Shown here in pieces: positions 4,315-9,934 of a stretch of 64,000 bases of DNA (positions within the stretch are counted from its first letter, which is position 1; every line of letters begins with the position of its first letter). This DNA comes from Actinoplanes italicus (lineage in GTDB: Bacteria; Actinomycetota; Actinomycetes; Mycobacteriales; Micromonosporaceae): NCBI RefSeq assembly GCF_003001815.1, contig NZ_PVMZ01000013.1, forward strand, positions 124,001 to 188,000, read 5' to 3'. The position numbers and the translations under genes were made by a program. Below the pieces are notes generated by a model. That model did not search any database, had not been told where the DNA came from, and saw only the letters and a list, made by a program, of their open reading frames with translations.

Positions 4315-4358
4315 CACTCGTCCGGGCAGGGAAACTCGTTGGCCGGCCCGGACGAGTG
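4315..4358. terminator. 13-bp perfect hairpin just upstream of the tRNA-like element
   Basis: CACTCGTCCGGGC (4315-4327) is exactly repeated in inverse as GCCCGGACGAGTG (4346-4358) with an 18-base loop. It ends 17 bases before the tRNA-like element. It may be a terminator for upstream transcription or a processing structure. The stretch 4092-4314 holds only the possible 5' extension of the minus-strand gene. Confidence 0.5.
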
Positions 4359-4375
4359 ATGTGATGATCTGCGGC

Positions 4376-4506
4376 GGGTCGCTAGCTCAACGGCTAGAGC
4401 GCTCGGCTTGGTCAGCACGTCCGCTCTCCGTCTCGCGCGGTAATGGGTGTGCTTCCTTCTTCCTTTCTGGACCGAGAGGATCGGGGTTCGACTCCCCGGC
4501 GACCCA
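4376..4506 (+). tRNA. tRNA-shaped element with a 65-base anticodon loop (split, intron-like or pseudo-tRNA)
   Basis: All arms of a tRNA are present. The acceptor GGGTCGC (4376-4382) pairs with GCGACCC (4499-4505), with discriminator A4506. The D arm is GCTC/GAGC (4385-4400), the anticodon stem CTCGG (4402-4406) with CCGAG (4472-4476), and the T arm CGGGG-TTCGACT-CCCCG (4482-4498). The loop between the anticodon-stem strands is 65 bases instead of 7, and the extra 58 bases can fold on themselves (AGCAC 4414-4418 with GTGCT 4449-4453). No standard anticodon can be assigned. Removing an insert would leave something like a Lys or Gln tRNA, but the boundaries are ambiguous. No CCA is encoded. It could be an interrupted pseudogene or a tRNA with a non-canonical insert. 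Confidence 0.55.
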
Positions 4507-4530: not shown

Positions 4531-6669
4531 GTGCTCGAGAAGACGATCATTCAGAAGACGCTGCGCGTGCCGGCGAGCGCCGGTACGGCCGGTGACGGTT
4601 CCGCGGTGGCGCGGCAGCTGGACGCCGCGCTGCTCGACGTCGGGTTCTCGGCGTCGCGGGAGCTGCTGGAGCATGTCGGCGGCCTCGCGCCGGAGCCGGC
4701 CATGGACCTCGCGGCCACCGTCGTGTCCGCGGTGCGTGAGCTGGTCGGCGACCTCGTCCGGCACAACGCCTACTTCATCGGGTTCCCGCACGACGTGCCG
4801 GACACCGTCGAGTTCTGGCTGGAGCGGCTGCAGGCGGCCGTGCTCACCGGCGGCGGCGACGCGGCGGTCGGCATGGGCGGGCTCAACCTGCTCGCGCTGC
4901 CGGGCTACGGCAGCTACCAGCACACGTACGCCGACCTGCTGGCCGCCCACGACGAGCTCATCGCGTCCGCCGGTGACCGGCTGACCGTCCTGCGCCTCGG
5001 CGACACCGCGGAGGTGGAGGCGCAGCGGCTCTACCTGGCCCTCGCCGGTGGTGTCACGCCGCTCGGCGAGGCCGATCTCGCGATCCTCAGCGAGCTGGCG
5101 CTGCTCTGCGCGGACGGCGAACAGCCCGACGCGATTCCCGTACGGGAGAACCGTGCCGTCCTCAACGGCGTCCGCCTGGTCCTCGGCCGTCCGCTGGTCG
5201 CCGTCGACACCACGACCGACGTGCTGCGCCTGGCCTGCCAGGTCTCCGGCGGTGACGTGTCGCTGGCGGCCCGCACCCGGTTCCGCGCGTTCCGGCGCGT
5301 GGAGCGGCGGGTGCTGCTGGAGGCGCTGGACCGGGTCGTCGGCGCGAACCCGGCCAAACTCGGTGACGTCGCCCGCTTCGCGGAGCCGTGGAAGCGGCTC
5401 GGTGAGCGGCTGCACCCGCACGAGTACGCCCAGTGGCCGCACGCCCAGGCGGTGTTCGCGGTCGCCCGCGGCGAGCGCAAGGCGCACAGCCTCGCCGGGC
5501 GGGCCGAACAGGCCTTCCAGGCCGGTTCGGTGGGACGGGCCGCGTCGGTGCTGTCCGCCGCGCCGGGTCAGCTGCTGCGTGCCGCCGACCGGCTGCTGCG
5601 GTCGGCCGCCGACGAGGAACGGGCCGTCGTGGTCGACGCGGTGGGCCGTGCGCTGGGTTCGGCGTCCGGCCGGGTGCTGCTCTCGCTGCGGGAGCACGTC
5701 GCCAACCGGCTGACGCCCGCGAGCGCCCGGATGTACGTCGGCCGGTCGCGCCGTTCGTGGATCGGCCGGGACGAGCGGTCGCCGCTGCCGGCGGACCTGG
5801 TCGCCGAGCTGTCGGCGCTGCTCGACACCGAGATCGGTGCCCGGCTGCCGGACCCGGGGCGTCCGCTGCTGGTCGATCCGGACGTGCTCGACGTCGCCCT
5901 GCCGCTGTCCGGCAAGGCGGCCGAGGGCGGCTTCGCGGTGCTGCCGCGCGGCTCGAGGGCGCCGGTCACCGGTGAGCTGCTGCGGTTCTTCACGTACTGG
6001 CGTCAGACCCGGAACCGGACCGACTACGACCTGTCGGTGCTGCTGCTCGACGAGCGGTTCCACTCCACGGGTCAGGTGTCGTTCACGAACTACCACCACG
6101 ACGGCGCCGTGCACTCCGGCGACCTCACCGAGGCGAAGAACGGCGCCACCGAGTTCATCGACGTGCCGCTGACGATCGCCGGGCGCTACGTGGTCCCGCA
6201 GGTCAACATCTACGCGGGGGAGTCGTTCGACGAGGTCGCCGAGTCGATGTTCGGGTACCAGACCCGCACCCTGGACCAGCGCGGCGCACCGTTCGACGCG
6301 CGGACCGTACGGGCCCGCTCGCAGATGCGCGGCGGCGGGCGGGTCGCGCTGCCGATGGTCTTCGCCAACGGCGAGCGCGGCTGGGAGGCCATCTGGCTGC
6401 ACCTGTACCTGACCGGTCATCCGTCGTTCAACCAGGTCGAGGAGAACCAGTTCAACACCGCCGACCGGGTGCGCGCGCTGGTCGAGCGGCGCTACCTCAC
6501 GGTGTCCTACCTCGTCGATCTCTGGCGGGCCCGGACCGAGGTGACGACGTGGAACGGGCGGCTGCCGGACGAGCCGGTCACGTTCATCGGCCTGGAGGCC
6601 CCGGAGGGCCTGCCGGCGGGCTCGGACACGATCACGCTGGACCGGCTCACCGAGTTGATCCCCGGGTGA
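4531..6669 (+). CDS. Large protein with C-terminal TerD-like domain
   Basis: The GTG at 4531 behind CGGGGG gives 712 residues. The region from about residue 471 to 620 resembles TerD/stress-response domains: FFTYWRQTRNRTDYDLSV, then GDLTEAKNGATEFIDVPL. In that family these strands hold calcium-binding acidic residues. The first 450 residues are mainly helical, without recognisable catalytic motifs, signal peptide or membrane spans. The overall architecture recalls a family annotated as MXAN_6230/SCO0854-like, but the RING-type cysteines given in that name are not visible here, so I hold that assignment loosely. A cytosolic role in chemical-stress response is the best guess. A dodecin gene follows 47 bases downstream. 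Confidence 0.6.
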   Translation: MLEKTIIQKTLRVPASAGTAGDGSAVARQLDAALLDVGFSASRELLEHVGGLAPEPAMDLAATVVSAVRELVGDLVRHNAYFIGFPHDVPDTVEFWLERLQAAVLTGGGDAAVGMGGLNLLALPGYGSYQHTYADLLAAHDELIASAGDRLTVLRLGDTAEVEAQRLYLALAGGVTPLGEADLAILSELALLCADGEQPDAIPVRENRAVLNGVRLVLGRPLVAVDTTTDVLRLACQVSGGDVSLAARTRFRAFRRVERRVLLEALDRVVGANPAKLGDVARFAEPWKRLGERLHPHEYAQWPHAQAVFAVARGERKAHSLAGRAEQAFQAGSVGRAASVLSAAPGQLLRAADRLLRSAADEERAVVVDAVGRALGSASGRVLLSLREHVANRLTPASARMYVGRSRRSWIGRDERSPLPADLVAELSALLDTEIGARLPDPGRPLLVDPDVLDVALPLSGKAAEGGFAVLPRGSRAPVTGELLRFFTYWRQTRNRTDYDLSVLLLDERFHSTGQVSFTNYHHDGAVHSGDLTEAKNGATEFIDVPLTIAGRYVVPQVNIYAGESFDEVAESMFGYQTRTLDQRGAPFDARTVRARSQMRGGGRVALPMVFANGERGWEAIWLHLYLTGHPSFNQVEENQFNTADRVRALVERRYLTVSYLVDLWRARTEVTTWNGRLPDEPVTFIGLEAPEGLPAGSDTITLDRLTELIPG

Positions 6670-6998: not shown

Positions 6999-8525
6999 TT
7001 GATCGACCAGAAGCCGCGCTACGTGCTGTTTCCCGGCCGCCATCACCTCCTGACGCGCTTCCAGGCCGACTATCTGCACCGGCTCGCCTCGGAGAGTGAA
7101 GCCACGATCGTGTGGGCGGTGACGTCGGCCAACCACGACAACACCCGGCGCAACCCGGTCCCGTACCACCGGCGGGAGGCCGCGATCGAGCGGTTCAGCC
7201 TGCTCAGCGGCCTGCGTTCGCTGGTCGTGCCGATCTTCGACACGGCACCCACCGACGCGTTCGCCGAGGTCACCCTCAAGAGCATCGCGGTCGCCACCGG
7301 CATCGACCTGACCCCGGACGACACGGTGGTGGCCTGCTCCACGCCGGAGGTGGCGAAACTCTACGAGCGGATCGGCTTCCCGATCGCGCTGGTAGAGGCC
7401 GACCCCGAGTTGCGTACGACCCCCGAGCGCCCGTGGGACGTGCTGCTGCGCCTGGCCGCCGGCGACGAGGAGTGGCGCAAGCTGGCCCACCCGGCGACCA
7501 TCGACGTGTTCGAGCGCTACCGGCTGGCCGAGACGGTCCGGACCGTCGTGGAGGATCCGCTGGTCGGCGACGAGGGCGGGCTCACCGCCACCCGCGACTA
7601 CCGGACGTACGTGGAGGCGTTCGCCGACGCGGCGGAGCGCAAGTGGTCGGCGGTGCGGCAGTACGTGCGGCCGGGCCGGATCGTGGACATCGGCTGTGGC
7701 GCCGGTTCGCTGCTGGAGCTGGCCGACCGCGAGCCCGGCCTGCACGAGAGCGACCTGATCGGCGTCGAGGTCGCCCGGCACCTTTACACCGAGTGCGTGC
7801 ACAAGAAGGCGCAGGGCGTCTTCCGGAACGCGAACGTGTACTTCTATCAGCGCAACGTCCTCGGCGGTGCGATCTTCGCGGACCGGTCGGTGGACACCAC
7901 GCTGACGTTCGCGCTGACCCACGAGATCTGGTCGTACGGCAGGCAACGCGAGTCGCTGCTCCAGTTCGCCAGCCGCATCTTCGACCACACCGTCCCCGGC
8001 GGTGTCTGGATCAACAGCGACGTGTGCGGCCCCGACGACCGCCGCCGCGAGGTCCTGCTGGACCTGGCCACCGACGACGGCGCCAACCCGGAGCAGCCGC
8101 GGACCGATCTCGCCGAGCTGTCGTCCGGCGAGGTCAACCAGTATGTCGCCGGTCTGTCGACGCGGGCCCGGCTCGACCAGTTCGCGGTGGACTTCGCGTT
8201 CCCGTTCGCGTTCGAGCCGGCCGGCGAGGGCACGGTGCGCCTCGAACTGGGCGCCGCCATGGACTTCCTGACCCGCAAGGACTACGTCGACAACTGGCTG
8301 TCGGAGACGAAGGAGCAGTTCTGCGGCCTGTCCTTCGCCGAGTGGTCCGACCTGCTGGCCGAGGCCGGTTTCGAGCTCGACGCGGCCTCGGCCCCGATCC
8401 GCAACGACTGGGTGATCGACAACCGGATCGCCCCGGTCGCGTCGCTCACCGAACTCGACGGCCGCCCGCTGGCCTGGCCCAGCACGCACCTGCTCGTGGT
8501 GGCCCGCCGCCCCCGCAACAGCTAG
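6999..8525 (+). CDS. Nucleotidyltransferase-like domain fused to a class I SAM methyltransferase
   Basis: A 508-residue protein starting at TTG 6999, directly after GGGGGA. Residues 8-25 (VLFPGRHHLLTRFQADYL) look like the nucleotide-binding start of the HIGH/NadM-type nucleotidylyltransferase fold, and a later CSTPEVAKLYERIG may match its second motif. Residues about 228-237 (IVDIGCGAGS) are motif I of a Rossmann methyltransferase, followed by an acidic IGVEVA. The C-terminal 150 residues continue the methyltransferase fold (LLVVARRPRN at the end). It therefore probably activates a small molecule with a nucleotide and methylates it, or edits a nucleotide-linked substrate. Its stop overlaps the stop of the convergent PaaK-like gene by 4 bases. 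Confidence 0.6.
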   Translation: MIDQKPRYVLFPGRHHLLTRFQADYLHRLASESEATIVWAVTSANHDNTRRNPVPYHRREAAIERFSLLSGLRSLVVPIFDTAPTDAFAEVTLKSIAVATGIDLTPDDTVVACSTPEVAKLYERIGFPIALVEADPELRTTPERPWDVLLRLAAGDEEWRKLAHPATIDVFERYRLAETVRTVVEDPLVGDEGGLTATRDYRTYVEAFADAAERKWSAVRQYVRPGRIVDIGCGAGSLLELADREPGLHESDLIGVEVARHLYTECVHKKAQGVFRNANVYFYQRNVLGGAIFADRSVDTTLTFALTHEIWSYGRQRESLLQFASRIFDHTVPGGVWINSDVCGPDDRRREVLLDLATDDGANPEQPRTDLAELSSGEVNQYVAGLSTRARLDQFAVDFAFPFAFEPAGEGTVRLELGAAMDFLTRKDYVDNWLSETKEQFCGLSFAEWSDLLAEAGFELDAASAPIRNDWVIDNRIAPVASLTELDGRPLAWPSTHLLVVARRPRNS

Positions 8526-9934
8526 GCCGCCCCGTCCTCGGGGCGGGTCCAGCGGTGCTTCACGCCCTTCGGGAAGTACTCCGGGTCGTCCGCGGCCCGG
8601 AGTTCCACCAGCGGTGTCTGCTGCTCGGCCGGCACGTAGTGGGCGAACTCGCTGTTGAGCCGTACCAGCTCGGTGCGGATCGACTCGGCGGCGAGTCGCT
8701 CGCGTTCCGGTGTGGCCTCGGCGCCGGGCGCCAGCTCGACCACCACGGACAGCCAGCGGTCCCGGTCGGCGTCCTCGACCGTGCGCAGCACGAACCGCCC
8801 GGTCGTCCACCCGCTGACCGCCGGCCGTTCCAGACCGACCGTGACGTTCTCCGGGTACACGTTGGCGCCGAAGAACGACACCGTGAACAGCGAACGCCCG
8901 AACACGTAGACGAACGGCAGCGGCGGCCCCTCGCCCGGCTCGAAACCATGCCTTCGGCAGAACAGGATCATTTCGGCGTACGACAGGAGCCCGCCCTCGT
9001 CGGCGATGTGATACCGGACCAGGGGTACCGTGCCGTCGGCGCTGAACACCAGCGTCCCGTCCTCGGCCGTCTCGAACAGGCGCGCCGCCGGGTCGTACTG
9101 CACCAGCGTCGGTAGCCGTGAGTCGCCGAACAGCGCCGACGCCACCTCCGGGTGCCCGGCGAGGAAACGGCGGATGCGCACGCTCAGCGCCGTCTCGTTG
9201 CCGAGCACCCCCGCGTCGGCCGTGCCGTAGAGCGACGCGACCCCGGACTCCGGATCGGCGATGCCGGCCCGCCCGGCCATCAGGTCACGCCACTGCTCGC
9301 TGAACACCTCGCCTGCCAGCACCAGCTTGACCTGCATGGACGGCCAGTCCACGCCTCGGGCCACCCCGGCGTCGACGACGTTCTTGACGAACGGCGGATA
9401 GCCCAGCAGCACGGTCTGCTCGAACAGCGGCCCGAGCTCCCCGACCACCCGCAGGATCTCCTCGACGTCGTTGCCGGGCGCGGCCACCGTGATCGGATAG
9501 CCGCCGGCCGCCAGCTGCCGGCACGCCGCGACCGTGTACATGCCGCCGACCCAGTTGCCGAGCGCGAAGCACACCACGGCCAGGGTGCTGCGCTCGGCGG
9601 CCCGGAACCCGTCCCGGAACACCTGCTCGAAGCGGGCCGTGACCGGCCGCTCGTCCTCGACCGTCCGCGGCCACACCGTCGGACGGCCCGACGATCCGGA
9701 CGACACCGCCACCATGGCCGCCGTGTCGAGGCGCCCGCCACGGCAGCGCTCGCTCAACCCGTACCGCTGATGGTAGTTGATCTTGGTCGTCAACGGGATC
9801 CACGACGGATCGCCGACCGCGCCCGGATCCACTCCCAGCTCCCGCAGAAAACGCGCATAGGCGGGAACGTTCCCGGCCGCGTCGCGGAACAGTGCGAGGA
9901 CCGACAGTGGCTCCGGGCCGCTGGGCTCGTGCAT
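8522..9934 (-). CDS. PaaK-like adenylate-forming enzyme (phenylacetate-CoA ligase family)
   Basis: This 470-residue protein starts at ATG 9934 behind CGGGAG. The phosphate-binding loop SSGSSGRPT is at residues 78-86. Further signs of the ANL/PaaK family are SLYGTADAG (adenine-binding region), VPLVRYHIADEGG and FVYVFGRSLFTVSFFGANVYPENV. The family joins ATP and an aryl or acyl acid to give an acyl-adenylate and then a CoA thioester. The lack of other phenylacetate genes argues against classical degradation and for a specialised acid substrate. Its tail-to-tail overlap with the methyltransferase fusion suggests that the two genes travel together. Confidence 0.75.
   Translation of the reverse strand: MHEPSGPEPLSVLALFRDAAGNVPAYARFLRELGVDPGAVGDPSWIPLTTKINYHQRYGLSERCRGGRLDTAAMVAVSSGSSGRPTVWPRTVEDERPVTARFEQVFRDGFRAAERSTLAVVCFALGNWVGGMYTVAACRQLAAGGYPITVAAPGNDVEEILRVVGELGPLFEQTVLLGYPPFVKNVVDAGVARGVDWPSMQVKLVLAGEVFSEQWRDLMAGRAGIADPESGVASLYGTADAGVLGNETALSVRIRRFLAGHPEVASALFGDSRLPTLVQYDPAARLFETAEDGTLVFSADGTVPLVRYHIADEGGLLSYAEMILFCRRHGFEPGEGPPLPFVYVFGRSLFTVSFFGANVYPENVTVGLERPAVSGWTTGRFVLRTVEDADRDRWLSVVVELAPGAEATPERERLAAESIRTELVRLNSEFAHYVPAEQQTPLVELRAADDPEYFPKGVKHRWTRPEDGAA

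Follow-up and report, generated by a model that had tools for sequence, protein, structure and literature searches.

The window analysed here, a stretch of 64,000 nucleotides of the Actinoplanes italicus genome, carries at positions 4376 to 4506 of the forward strand a tRNA-like RNA, hereafter the 5' RNA, followed by the gene for a 712-residue protein, hereafter the partner protein (Table 1). A preliminary description had read this RNA as a complete tRNA cloverleaf with four perfectly paired stems and an anticodon loop of 65 nucleotides, and had placed the start of a gene 24 nucleotides beyond it. All of this holds: the Rfam tRNA model RF00005 matches the RNA from its first to its last position (52.8 bits, E = 1.3e-10; the printed alignment omits 62 bases of the anticodon region), every pair of the acceptor, D, anticodon and T stems read on the sequence is a standard one, and the gene begins with the GTG at 4531. 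Both ARAGORN and a fast Rfam scan of the window missed the RNA, which according to a DNA search is single-copy in the genome (11.15 Mb, 71 contigs). Farther along the window lie a methyltransferase-like gene (6999-8525, forward strand) and a weakly phenylacetate-CoA ligase-like gene (8522-9934, reverse strand). Neither is a conserved neighbour in the 40 loci examined; a conserved third gene was rejected, as no other gene is common to more than five of these loci.

Table 1. Features of the RNA-gene locus, with positions counted along the window.
Feature	Position	Strand	Basis
Conserved distal block AAACTCGTTGG, promoter-like	4332..4342	+	Pattern in 43/52 upstream regions
Conserved proximal block ATGTGATGATC, -10-like, 6 nt before the RNA	4359..4369	+	Strict pattern in 37/52
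5' tRNA-mimic RNA, whole	4376..4506	+	RF00005, 52.8 bits; our own model R1, 130.4 bits
Acceptor stem, 5' strand	4376..4382 (partner 4499-4505; 4506 is the discriminator A)	+	Two-sided changes in 3/7 pairs, 47 RNAs
D arm with G18G19	4385..4400 (stem 4385-4388/4397-4400)	+	Stem invariant in 47 RNAs; GG in every D-loop listed
Anticodon stem, 5' strand	4402..4406 (partner 4472-4476)	+	Two-sided changes in 3/5 pairs; all cells paired, 47 RNAs
Anticodon loop, 65 nt	4407-4471	+	Read on the sequence
Insert hairpin: stem AGCAC/GTGCT, TCC/GGG, internal loop, apical CCGT/GCGG	4414..4453	+	Helices 4 and 5
Single-stranded pyrimidine tract, TCCTTCTTCCTTTC in the window, TCCTTCTC in most relatives	4454..4467	+	Comparison of RNAs
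T arm, loop TTCGACT	4482..4498 (stem 4482-4486/4494-4498)	+	Stem invariant in 47 RNAs; loop TTCGANT in 47
Gene of the 712-aa partner protein, RING-less relative of the MXAN_6230/SCO0854 family	4531..6669	+	Family searches, alignments

The body of the 5' RNA has what is expected of a tRNA, namely the four stems, U8-A14, G18G19, the T-loop and R15-Y48. The residues U8, A14, A15 and U48 are present together in 44 of 47 RNAs, the exceptions being one G15-C48, one A8 and one G15-U48, and the discriminator is followed by C in 51 of 52, as in the tRNAs of the same genome that were read. Under model R1 the best ordinary tRNA of the genome is tRNA-Lys(CTT) (C15:99060-99132, 73.4 bits); judged by its sequence, the tRNA body of the window RNA is close to tRNA-Lys. 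When RF00005 was applied to the RNA of four relatives' loci, its cut-off was reached in two (L136, L122) and the RNA was missed in the other two (L115, L116). Elsewhere in the A. italicus genome there are two dense tRNA arrays, C4:16326-17612 (L035) and C15:98906-99832 (L036), with 14 and 11 tRNA genes in the stretches read with ARAGORN, and two more tRNA-like matches with long inserts, C15:275980-276107 (L031; 128 nt, 30.8 bits) and C13:54883-55019 (L032; 137 nt, 26.6 bits), neither of which is found by our model of the insert.

The hairpin that the preliminary description had assigned to the insert itself is real, and the single-stranded UCCUUCUC tract of the insert is near-invariant. The ends of the anticodon loop vary among the 47 RNAs (CTGAGT, CTGGTC, CGAGT, CAGAAGT, TCTGCGT and others), and anticodon and U33 are not kept; since the bases flanking the insert differ between RNAs, no single anticodon is obtained once the insert is removed. 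In Rfam the window RNA has no group I or group II intron match, and neither it nor the second RNA described below has a family of its own. The proposal of a new class of insert is therefore retained in the sense of a conserved RNA motif with no Rfam family, but not in the sense of an intron, as splicing would yield no constant anticodon. An extension of the anticodon stem by four base pairs was tried and rejected.

Upstream of the 5' RNA a AAACTCGATGG-like block is followed by a GTGCGATGAT-like one, with a spacing of 16-17 nt wherever both patterns are found and with the proximal block ending 5-9 nt ahead of the RNA. The window's own proximal block misses the strict pattern by one base, and a sigma-70 consensus scan of the window found no promoter; by their pattern the two blocks look like a dedicated promoter of the 5' RNA. 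A 13-bp inverted repeat reported just upstream (4315-4327/4346-4358) is present, but is private to the window, the only one of the 52 homologous upstream regions with a perfect repeat of at least 10 bp. On the other side of the RNA, a start codon was found nearby in 45 of 52 loci, at a gap of 1-91 nt. It begins one base past the discriminator at two loci, L057 and L113, where a cut at the 3' end of the tRNA body would thus yield an mRNA with almost no leader.

Full-length DNA matches to the window RNA (127-133 nt) were found in 23 of 150 relatives; the remaining matches are pieces of 22-34 bases, and five of the six such loci inspected are ordinary tRNA-Lys genes. RNAalifold, applied to 20 of 24 RNAs (four with a misaligned T arm were excluded), returns the cloverleaf and the insert hairpin unprompted. 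Covariation was calculated on 47 of 52 distinct RNAs, the excluded ones being the same four misaligned sequences and the Salinispora vitiensis copy. In this set 99.2% of 1551 cells (33 pairs in 47 RNAs) are paired and two-sided changes occur in 9 of the 33 pairs, values that none of 500 shuffles reaches; the number of pair types is unremarkable, being reached by 55 of 500 shuffles. The share of paired cells drops by half when the partners are moved one column. The covariation is located in the acceptor, anticodon and insert stems, while the D and T stems are invariant and therefore uninformative in this respect. Covariation in related genomes had been put forward as a check, and it can be seen in three kinds of stem; the arms, whose conservation had been in question, are kept across the relatives. 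Plain energy folding gives a different picture, with the anticodon stem formed in only 2 and the D stem in 28 of the 47 RNAs, and with the cloverleaf at a median of 12.4 kcal/mol above the minimum energy. We trust the covariation over the folding energies, because both RNAs with GTCGA as the 5' strand have the matching TCGAC as the 3' strand. Overall, the 5' RNA is almost certainly a conserved structured RNA and, by the pattern of base changes, is under selection for structure.

A scan of 84,980 species genomes yielded 39 named loci encoding relatives of the 712-residue protein. The 5' RNA is upstream of the gene in 36 of them (118-152 bits with our own model), and within 200 nt in 34. The three named loci with no RNA nearby are those of Nocardia and Streptomyces (proteins at 52-54% identity), whose genomes contain no 5' RNA match at E 1e-12, and that of S. 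vitiensis, where the RNA (151 bits) lies 24 kb upstream of the gene. Among the first 150 relatives a close homologue (76-80% identity) occurs in 22, and the 5' RNA adjoins all 22 genes, including one that is broken (G032) and one in two pieces (G031). One genome of the 150 (G025) has the RNA and no gene, two (G084, G052) have gene remnants and no RNA, and two (G073, 49%; G103, 59%) have full-length proteins and no 5' RNA. Since a model of the full RNA also matches ordinary tRNAs in 395 of 396 genomes of the phylum, an insert-only model was used for counting. This model finds 62 of 300 genomes of the family, one of which (G035, 31 bits) was dropped as weak. With the 300 genomes drawn for the protein search taken as the same draw as those of the RNA search, 54 genomes have both RNA and gene, 7 the RNA only, 5 the gene only and 234 neither (Fisher p = 1e-45, uncorrected for kinship); of the five gene-only genomes, three encode proteins at 49-54% identity and two have broken genes. 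In 394 genomes of the class, that of A. italicus included, the insert model matches only two members of the family and, weakly, one more genome. We are confident that the 5' RNA is tied to the partner gene.

The partner protein had been called TerD-like, a name that finds indirect support at best. None of 38 family members, among them the window protein, matches the Pfam TerD domain (PF02342), and the whole A. italicus genome has no match either; on the other hand, the window protein shares 28% identity, along 524 aligned positions, with a Deinococcus protein that carries the annotation 'TerD family', which itself has no Pfam TerD match and whose gene has VWA-like and MoxR genes in its vicinity. 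For TerD domains, a role in recognising nucleotide derivatives within conflict systems has been proposed (PMC7159879). Over most of its length the window protein is also 30% identical to a Streptomyces halstedii member of the MXAN_6230/SCO0854 family. That member has a RING at 132-177; no RING match was obtained in the window protein, which scores 334.6 bits against the cut-off of 600 for the corresponding RING family in NCBIfam (NF041916). Searches of Pfam, PADLOC and PDB returned no match for the partner protein beyond a few chance listings with a single member or with E>1, and among solved structures there is no significant match. Distant homologues are found on actinobacterial and other plasmids. 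In the protein tree two Pseudonocardiales proteins fall among those of Micromonosporaceae, with no firm support, and a transfer between orders may be considered as a lead. No literature on the 5' RNA or on the partner protein was found among open-licence papers.

The search of distant homologues with the insert model first showed matches just 3' of the gene. The layout of this 3' element is GAGGCCATG-stem-CTTCCTTCT-loop-stem-GCTCTCCTC, and pattern searches find the same layout 3' of the gene in many loci. The 3' RNA is present in 33 of the 39 named loci (it is absent from L115, L121, L122, L125, L127 and L134, the last of which has a truncated gene), in all 22 gene-bearing relatives among the first 150 (at least nine of these genomes overlap the named-loci set) and in 9 of 10 distant homologues, none of the ten having the 5' RNA. 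It is found at none of ten loci that belong to relatives at an even greater distance (L062-L066, L069-L071, L166, L168), and the window locus itself has no 3' RNA, neither in the window nor in its 8.7-kb upstream neighbourhood. The element is a plain hairpin in Streptomyces, Nocardia and a few others, and directly 3' of one distant homologue (G073; L061 5120-5426) the motif hairpin occurs in four tandem copies. In most Micromonosporaceae the tip is elaborated into a T-arm-like hairpin, a 6-7-bp stem capped by GCAA or alike, and a short GG stretch, with a T-arm-like loop that is TTCRANT in 27 of 27 RNAs; one locus (L128) has a plain tip. Such a tip reads as a putative permuted tRNA with no anticodon arm. 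RNAalifold returns the structure of the 3' RNA unprompted, and two-sided changes occur in 7 of its 27 pairs, with none of 500 shuffles as good on any measure.

The two RNAs share a motif in opposite strand order. In the 5' RNA, strand B (AGCGC..CGCTCTCC) is followed by a cap and then by strand A (GGTCATGG..GCGCTTCCTTCT); in the 3' RNA the order is the reverse, strand A, tip, strand B. The internal loop GG-NNA-UG is found in 45 of 47 5' RNAs and in 26 of 27 3' RNAs, and the strand opposite it consists of four bases closed by CC, mostly CUCY (23 of the 45 5' RNAs that could be parsed and 22 of 27 3' RNAs). None of 2000 letter shuffles matches the similarity of strand A between the two RNAs; that of strand B taken by itself is weak, being equalled by 100 of 2000 shuffles. 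The 5' RNA has open tRNA ends and a capped motif; the 3' RNA has open motif ends, and a short loop caps its tRNA-like acceptor stem. We conclude that the two RNAs are, as predicted structures, circular permutations around the shared motif.

These results can be interpreted as follows. The explanation towards which we lean is that positions 4376-4506 encode a dedicated noncoding RNA that would form a tRNA-mimic ribonucleoprotein with the SCO0854/TerD-related protein and would work like bacterial Ro60-YrlA. The 5' RNA keeps a complete tRNA body in which a motif of hairpin and pyrimidine tract replaces the anticodon. The shared motif would be the site of protein binding; the tRNA body would lead the cell to process, stabilise and recognise the RNA as it does a tRNA, and the tRNA-like part may recruit a tRNA partner, or mimic one, as does the tRNA-like domain of YrlA with PNPase. 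Protein and RNA together would then be built like Ro60 with YrlA, from a protein-binding stem and a tRNA-like effector module, and would probably act in stress or RNA-conflict responses. The parts of this explanation differ in strength. Binding of the shared motif by the partner protein is probable. A Ro/Y-like function has in our estimate slightly less than an even chance, and we put forward a little more tentatively that we are dealing with a new kind of ribonucleoprotein with no Ro60, in which one protein is served by two circularly permuted tRNA-mimic RNAs encoded on either side of its gene. On the other side of the balance are the results of plain energy folding, the unremarkable number of pair types, the weak likeness of strand B, the two loci whose RNA RF00005 misses, the missing 3' RNA at the window locus, at six named loci and at one distant homologue, the two high-scoring RNAs with no intact gene, the lack of a Ro60 (TROVE) protein in the genome and the lack of a solved structure that matches the partner protein.

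The main rival explanation, to which we would give perhaps one chance in four, is autoregulation in cis: the 5' and 3' elements would be the two ends of the mRNA, and the bound protein would control its own translation or the stability of its mRNA. The thrS operator mimics a tRNA. That the RNA adjoins the gene in nearly all loci, at the short gaps given above, agrees with such a role, as do the flanking of the gene by both motifs and the near absence of a terminator-like hairpin between RNA and gene, which among the 45 short-gap loci was found only in Longispora (L125). The behaviour of the RNA upon loss of the gene points the same way, and also speaks for the tie between the two: the median score is 122 bits where the gene is missing or, as in L104 and L134, broken (n = 11) and 141 bits elsewhere (n = 49). 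The difference has p = 0.004, which becomes 0.012 if G031 is treated as broken too, uncorrected for kinship and with one RNA cut by a contig end dropped, even if two RNAs with no intact gene still score 143 and 151 bits. In one genome (G634) a single deletion fuses the 5' half of the RNA to the C-terminal part of the gene. In another (G640, L153), which has lost the gene in between, the 5' RNA is fused to the 3' RNA.

Other observations speak against an operator. The length of the gap varies widely, the tRNA elbow, which an operator does not need, is kept, and the nine distant homologues with a 3' RNA have this element only. Moreover, RNA and gene can lie 3-24 kb apart with both of them intact. 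In S. vitiensis the comparison with S. pacifica shows an island of 24.3 kb between RNA and gene, placed precisely at the RNA 3' end; in G674, a near relative of S. vitiensis, the distance is 18 kb, and in M. rosaria it is 3.1 kb. In S. vitiensis and M. rosaria the 5' RNA, the gene and the 3' RNA are all intact. The joints at the RNA 3' end in S. vitiensis (L141, L142) and G674 (L159) both contain CCGCACCATTGTGCGAA. In Actinophytocola (L116 3398-3877) the RNA stands first in a tRNA cluster that continues with tRNA-Ser, tRNA-Asn and another, weaker tRNA match; the gene at this locus is followed by two 3' elements (6166-6356). The separated loci, the Longispora hairpin and the Actinophytocola cluster favour, as genomic arrangements, a free RNA over a leader, but intact separated parts are no proof of action in trans, because the separating islands may be recent. 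The earlier suggestion of a tRNA-like regulator of the downstream gene shares this mixed outcome: the strong link between RNA and gene speaks for it, while their integrity across islands and the second RNA 3' of the gene in relatives speak against it.

The near-invariant pyrimidine tract could also belong to an antisense small RNA that masks the Shine-Dalgarno sequences of other genes, an explanation that we consider improbable. Perfect 11-nt complements of the tract number 30 in 8 genomes, or 24 when six RNA genes themselves are left aside, compared with 23 for the reversed control; one genome (G069) has no such site apart from the RNA gene, and the tract is also part of the motif of the 3' RNA. 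As far as perfect 11-nt complements are concerned, a simple antisense RNA was rejected. A phage or plasmid RNA was likewise rejected, with no DNA match and no viral-contig homologue of the protein.

Two further explanations have in our view hardly any chance. A functional tRNA with a short intron, spliced by a novel bacterial activity, would account for the complete arms, the position of the insert and the C after the discriminator, but it is contradicted by the varied loop ends with no constant anticodon or U33, by a possible archaeal-type junction pairing that is weak (78.6% of cells) and lacks the two 3-nt bulges, by the lack of any matched intron family in Rfam and by the recurrence of the insert motif outside a tRNA cloverleaf beside the same gene; that the 5' RNA is not a spliced tRNA we regard as almost certain. 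A dead tRNA kept solely as an attachment site for islands, as had also been proposed, agrees with the location of the S. vitiensis island at the 3' end of the RNA and with the different sequence at the same joint in G674, but finds no support because the stems covary, those of the insert hairpin included, and must contend with constant promoter-like blocks and a partner gene in 54 of 61 RNA-bearing genomes.

If the preferred reading of a tRNA-mimic ribonucleoprotein is correct, it would provide a direct handle on the role of SCO0854/TerD-related proteins and on tRNA mimicry arising by permutation. In any case the results add two RNA families that Rfam lacks, both linked to a protein family of unassigned function, and show one RNA motif presented on tRNA-like scaffolds with its strands in either order; a tRNA-like locus should not be dismissed as a pseudogene for its long anticodon loop. 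To our knowledge few bacterial RNAs that mimic tRNAs have been described, tmRNA and Y RNA being examples.

Among known systems, the group I and group II introns of bacterial tRNAs resemble the window RNA in the location of the insert in the anticodon loop; one review recognises no other significant example of diversity among the tRNA genes of bacteria (PMC4033280), and group I introns are likewise reported for tRNAscan-SE 2.0 (PMC8450103). The window insert differs from them in its size of about 58 nt, in matching no such intron and in leaving no constant anticodon. With tmRNA the RNA shares the joining of a tRNA-like part to other RNA at the place where the anticodon arm would be (PMC8394870); it is, however, only 131 nt long, its insert is unlike any tag-coding part, and ARAGORN, which covers tmRNA too, lists nothing at its position. 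On the protein side the comparison is with the Deinococcus protein annotated as TerD and with the MXAN_6230/SCO0854 family, by virtue of the identity to the S. halstedii member, from which the window protein departs in being below the family cut-off and RING-less, and the loci of the more distant relatives are devoid of the 3' RNA (0 of 10).

A further comparison is with Ro60 and YrlA. Bacterial Y RNAs are described as having a stem on the protein side, formed by the ends of the molecule, and a tRNA-like module with D, T and acceptor arms, which in YrlA binds PNPase; in some bacteria the rsr and Y RNA genes lie together (PMC8394870). TROVE, the Ro60 domain, is absent from the A. italicus genome and from the 38 family members of the partner protein, and the Rfam YrlA family is not among the matches up to E 10 for the 5' RNA or for one 3' RNA (L136); because of these two results the RNA is not classed as a Y RNA, and a canonical Y RNA was rejected. 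The likeness would reside in the 3' RNA, which adjoins the gene of its protein and is predicted to combine an end stem with a putative tRNA-like part; as read from the sequence, it carries the end stem, the T-arm-like hairpin, the capped stem of 6-7 bp and the GG-bearing stretch. The present system differs in having a protein of the SCO0854 kind as the partner, and a 5' RNA of opposite topology, with real tRNA ends.
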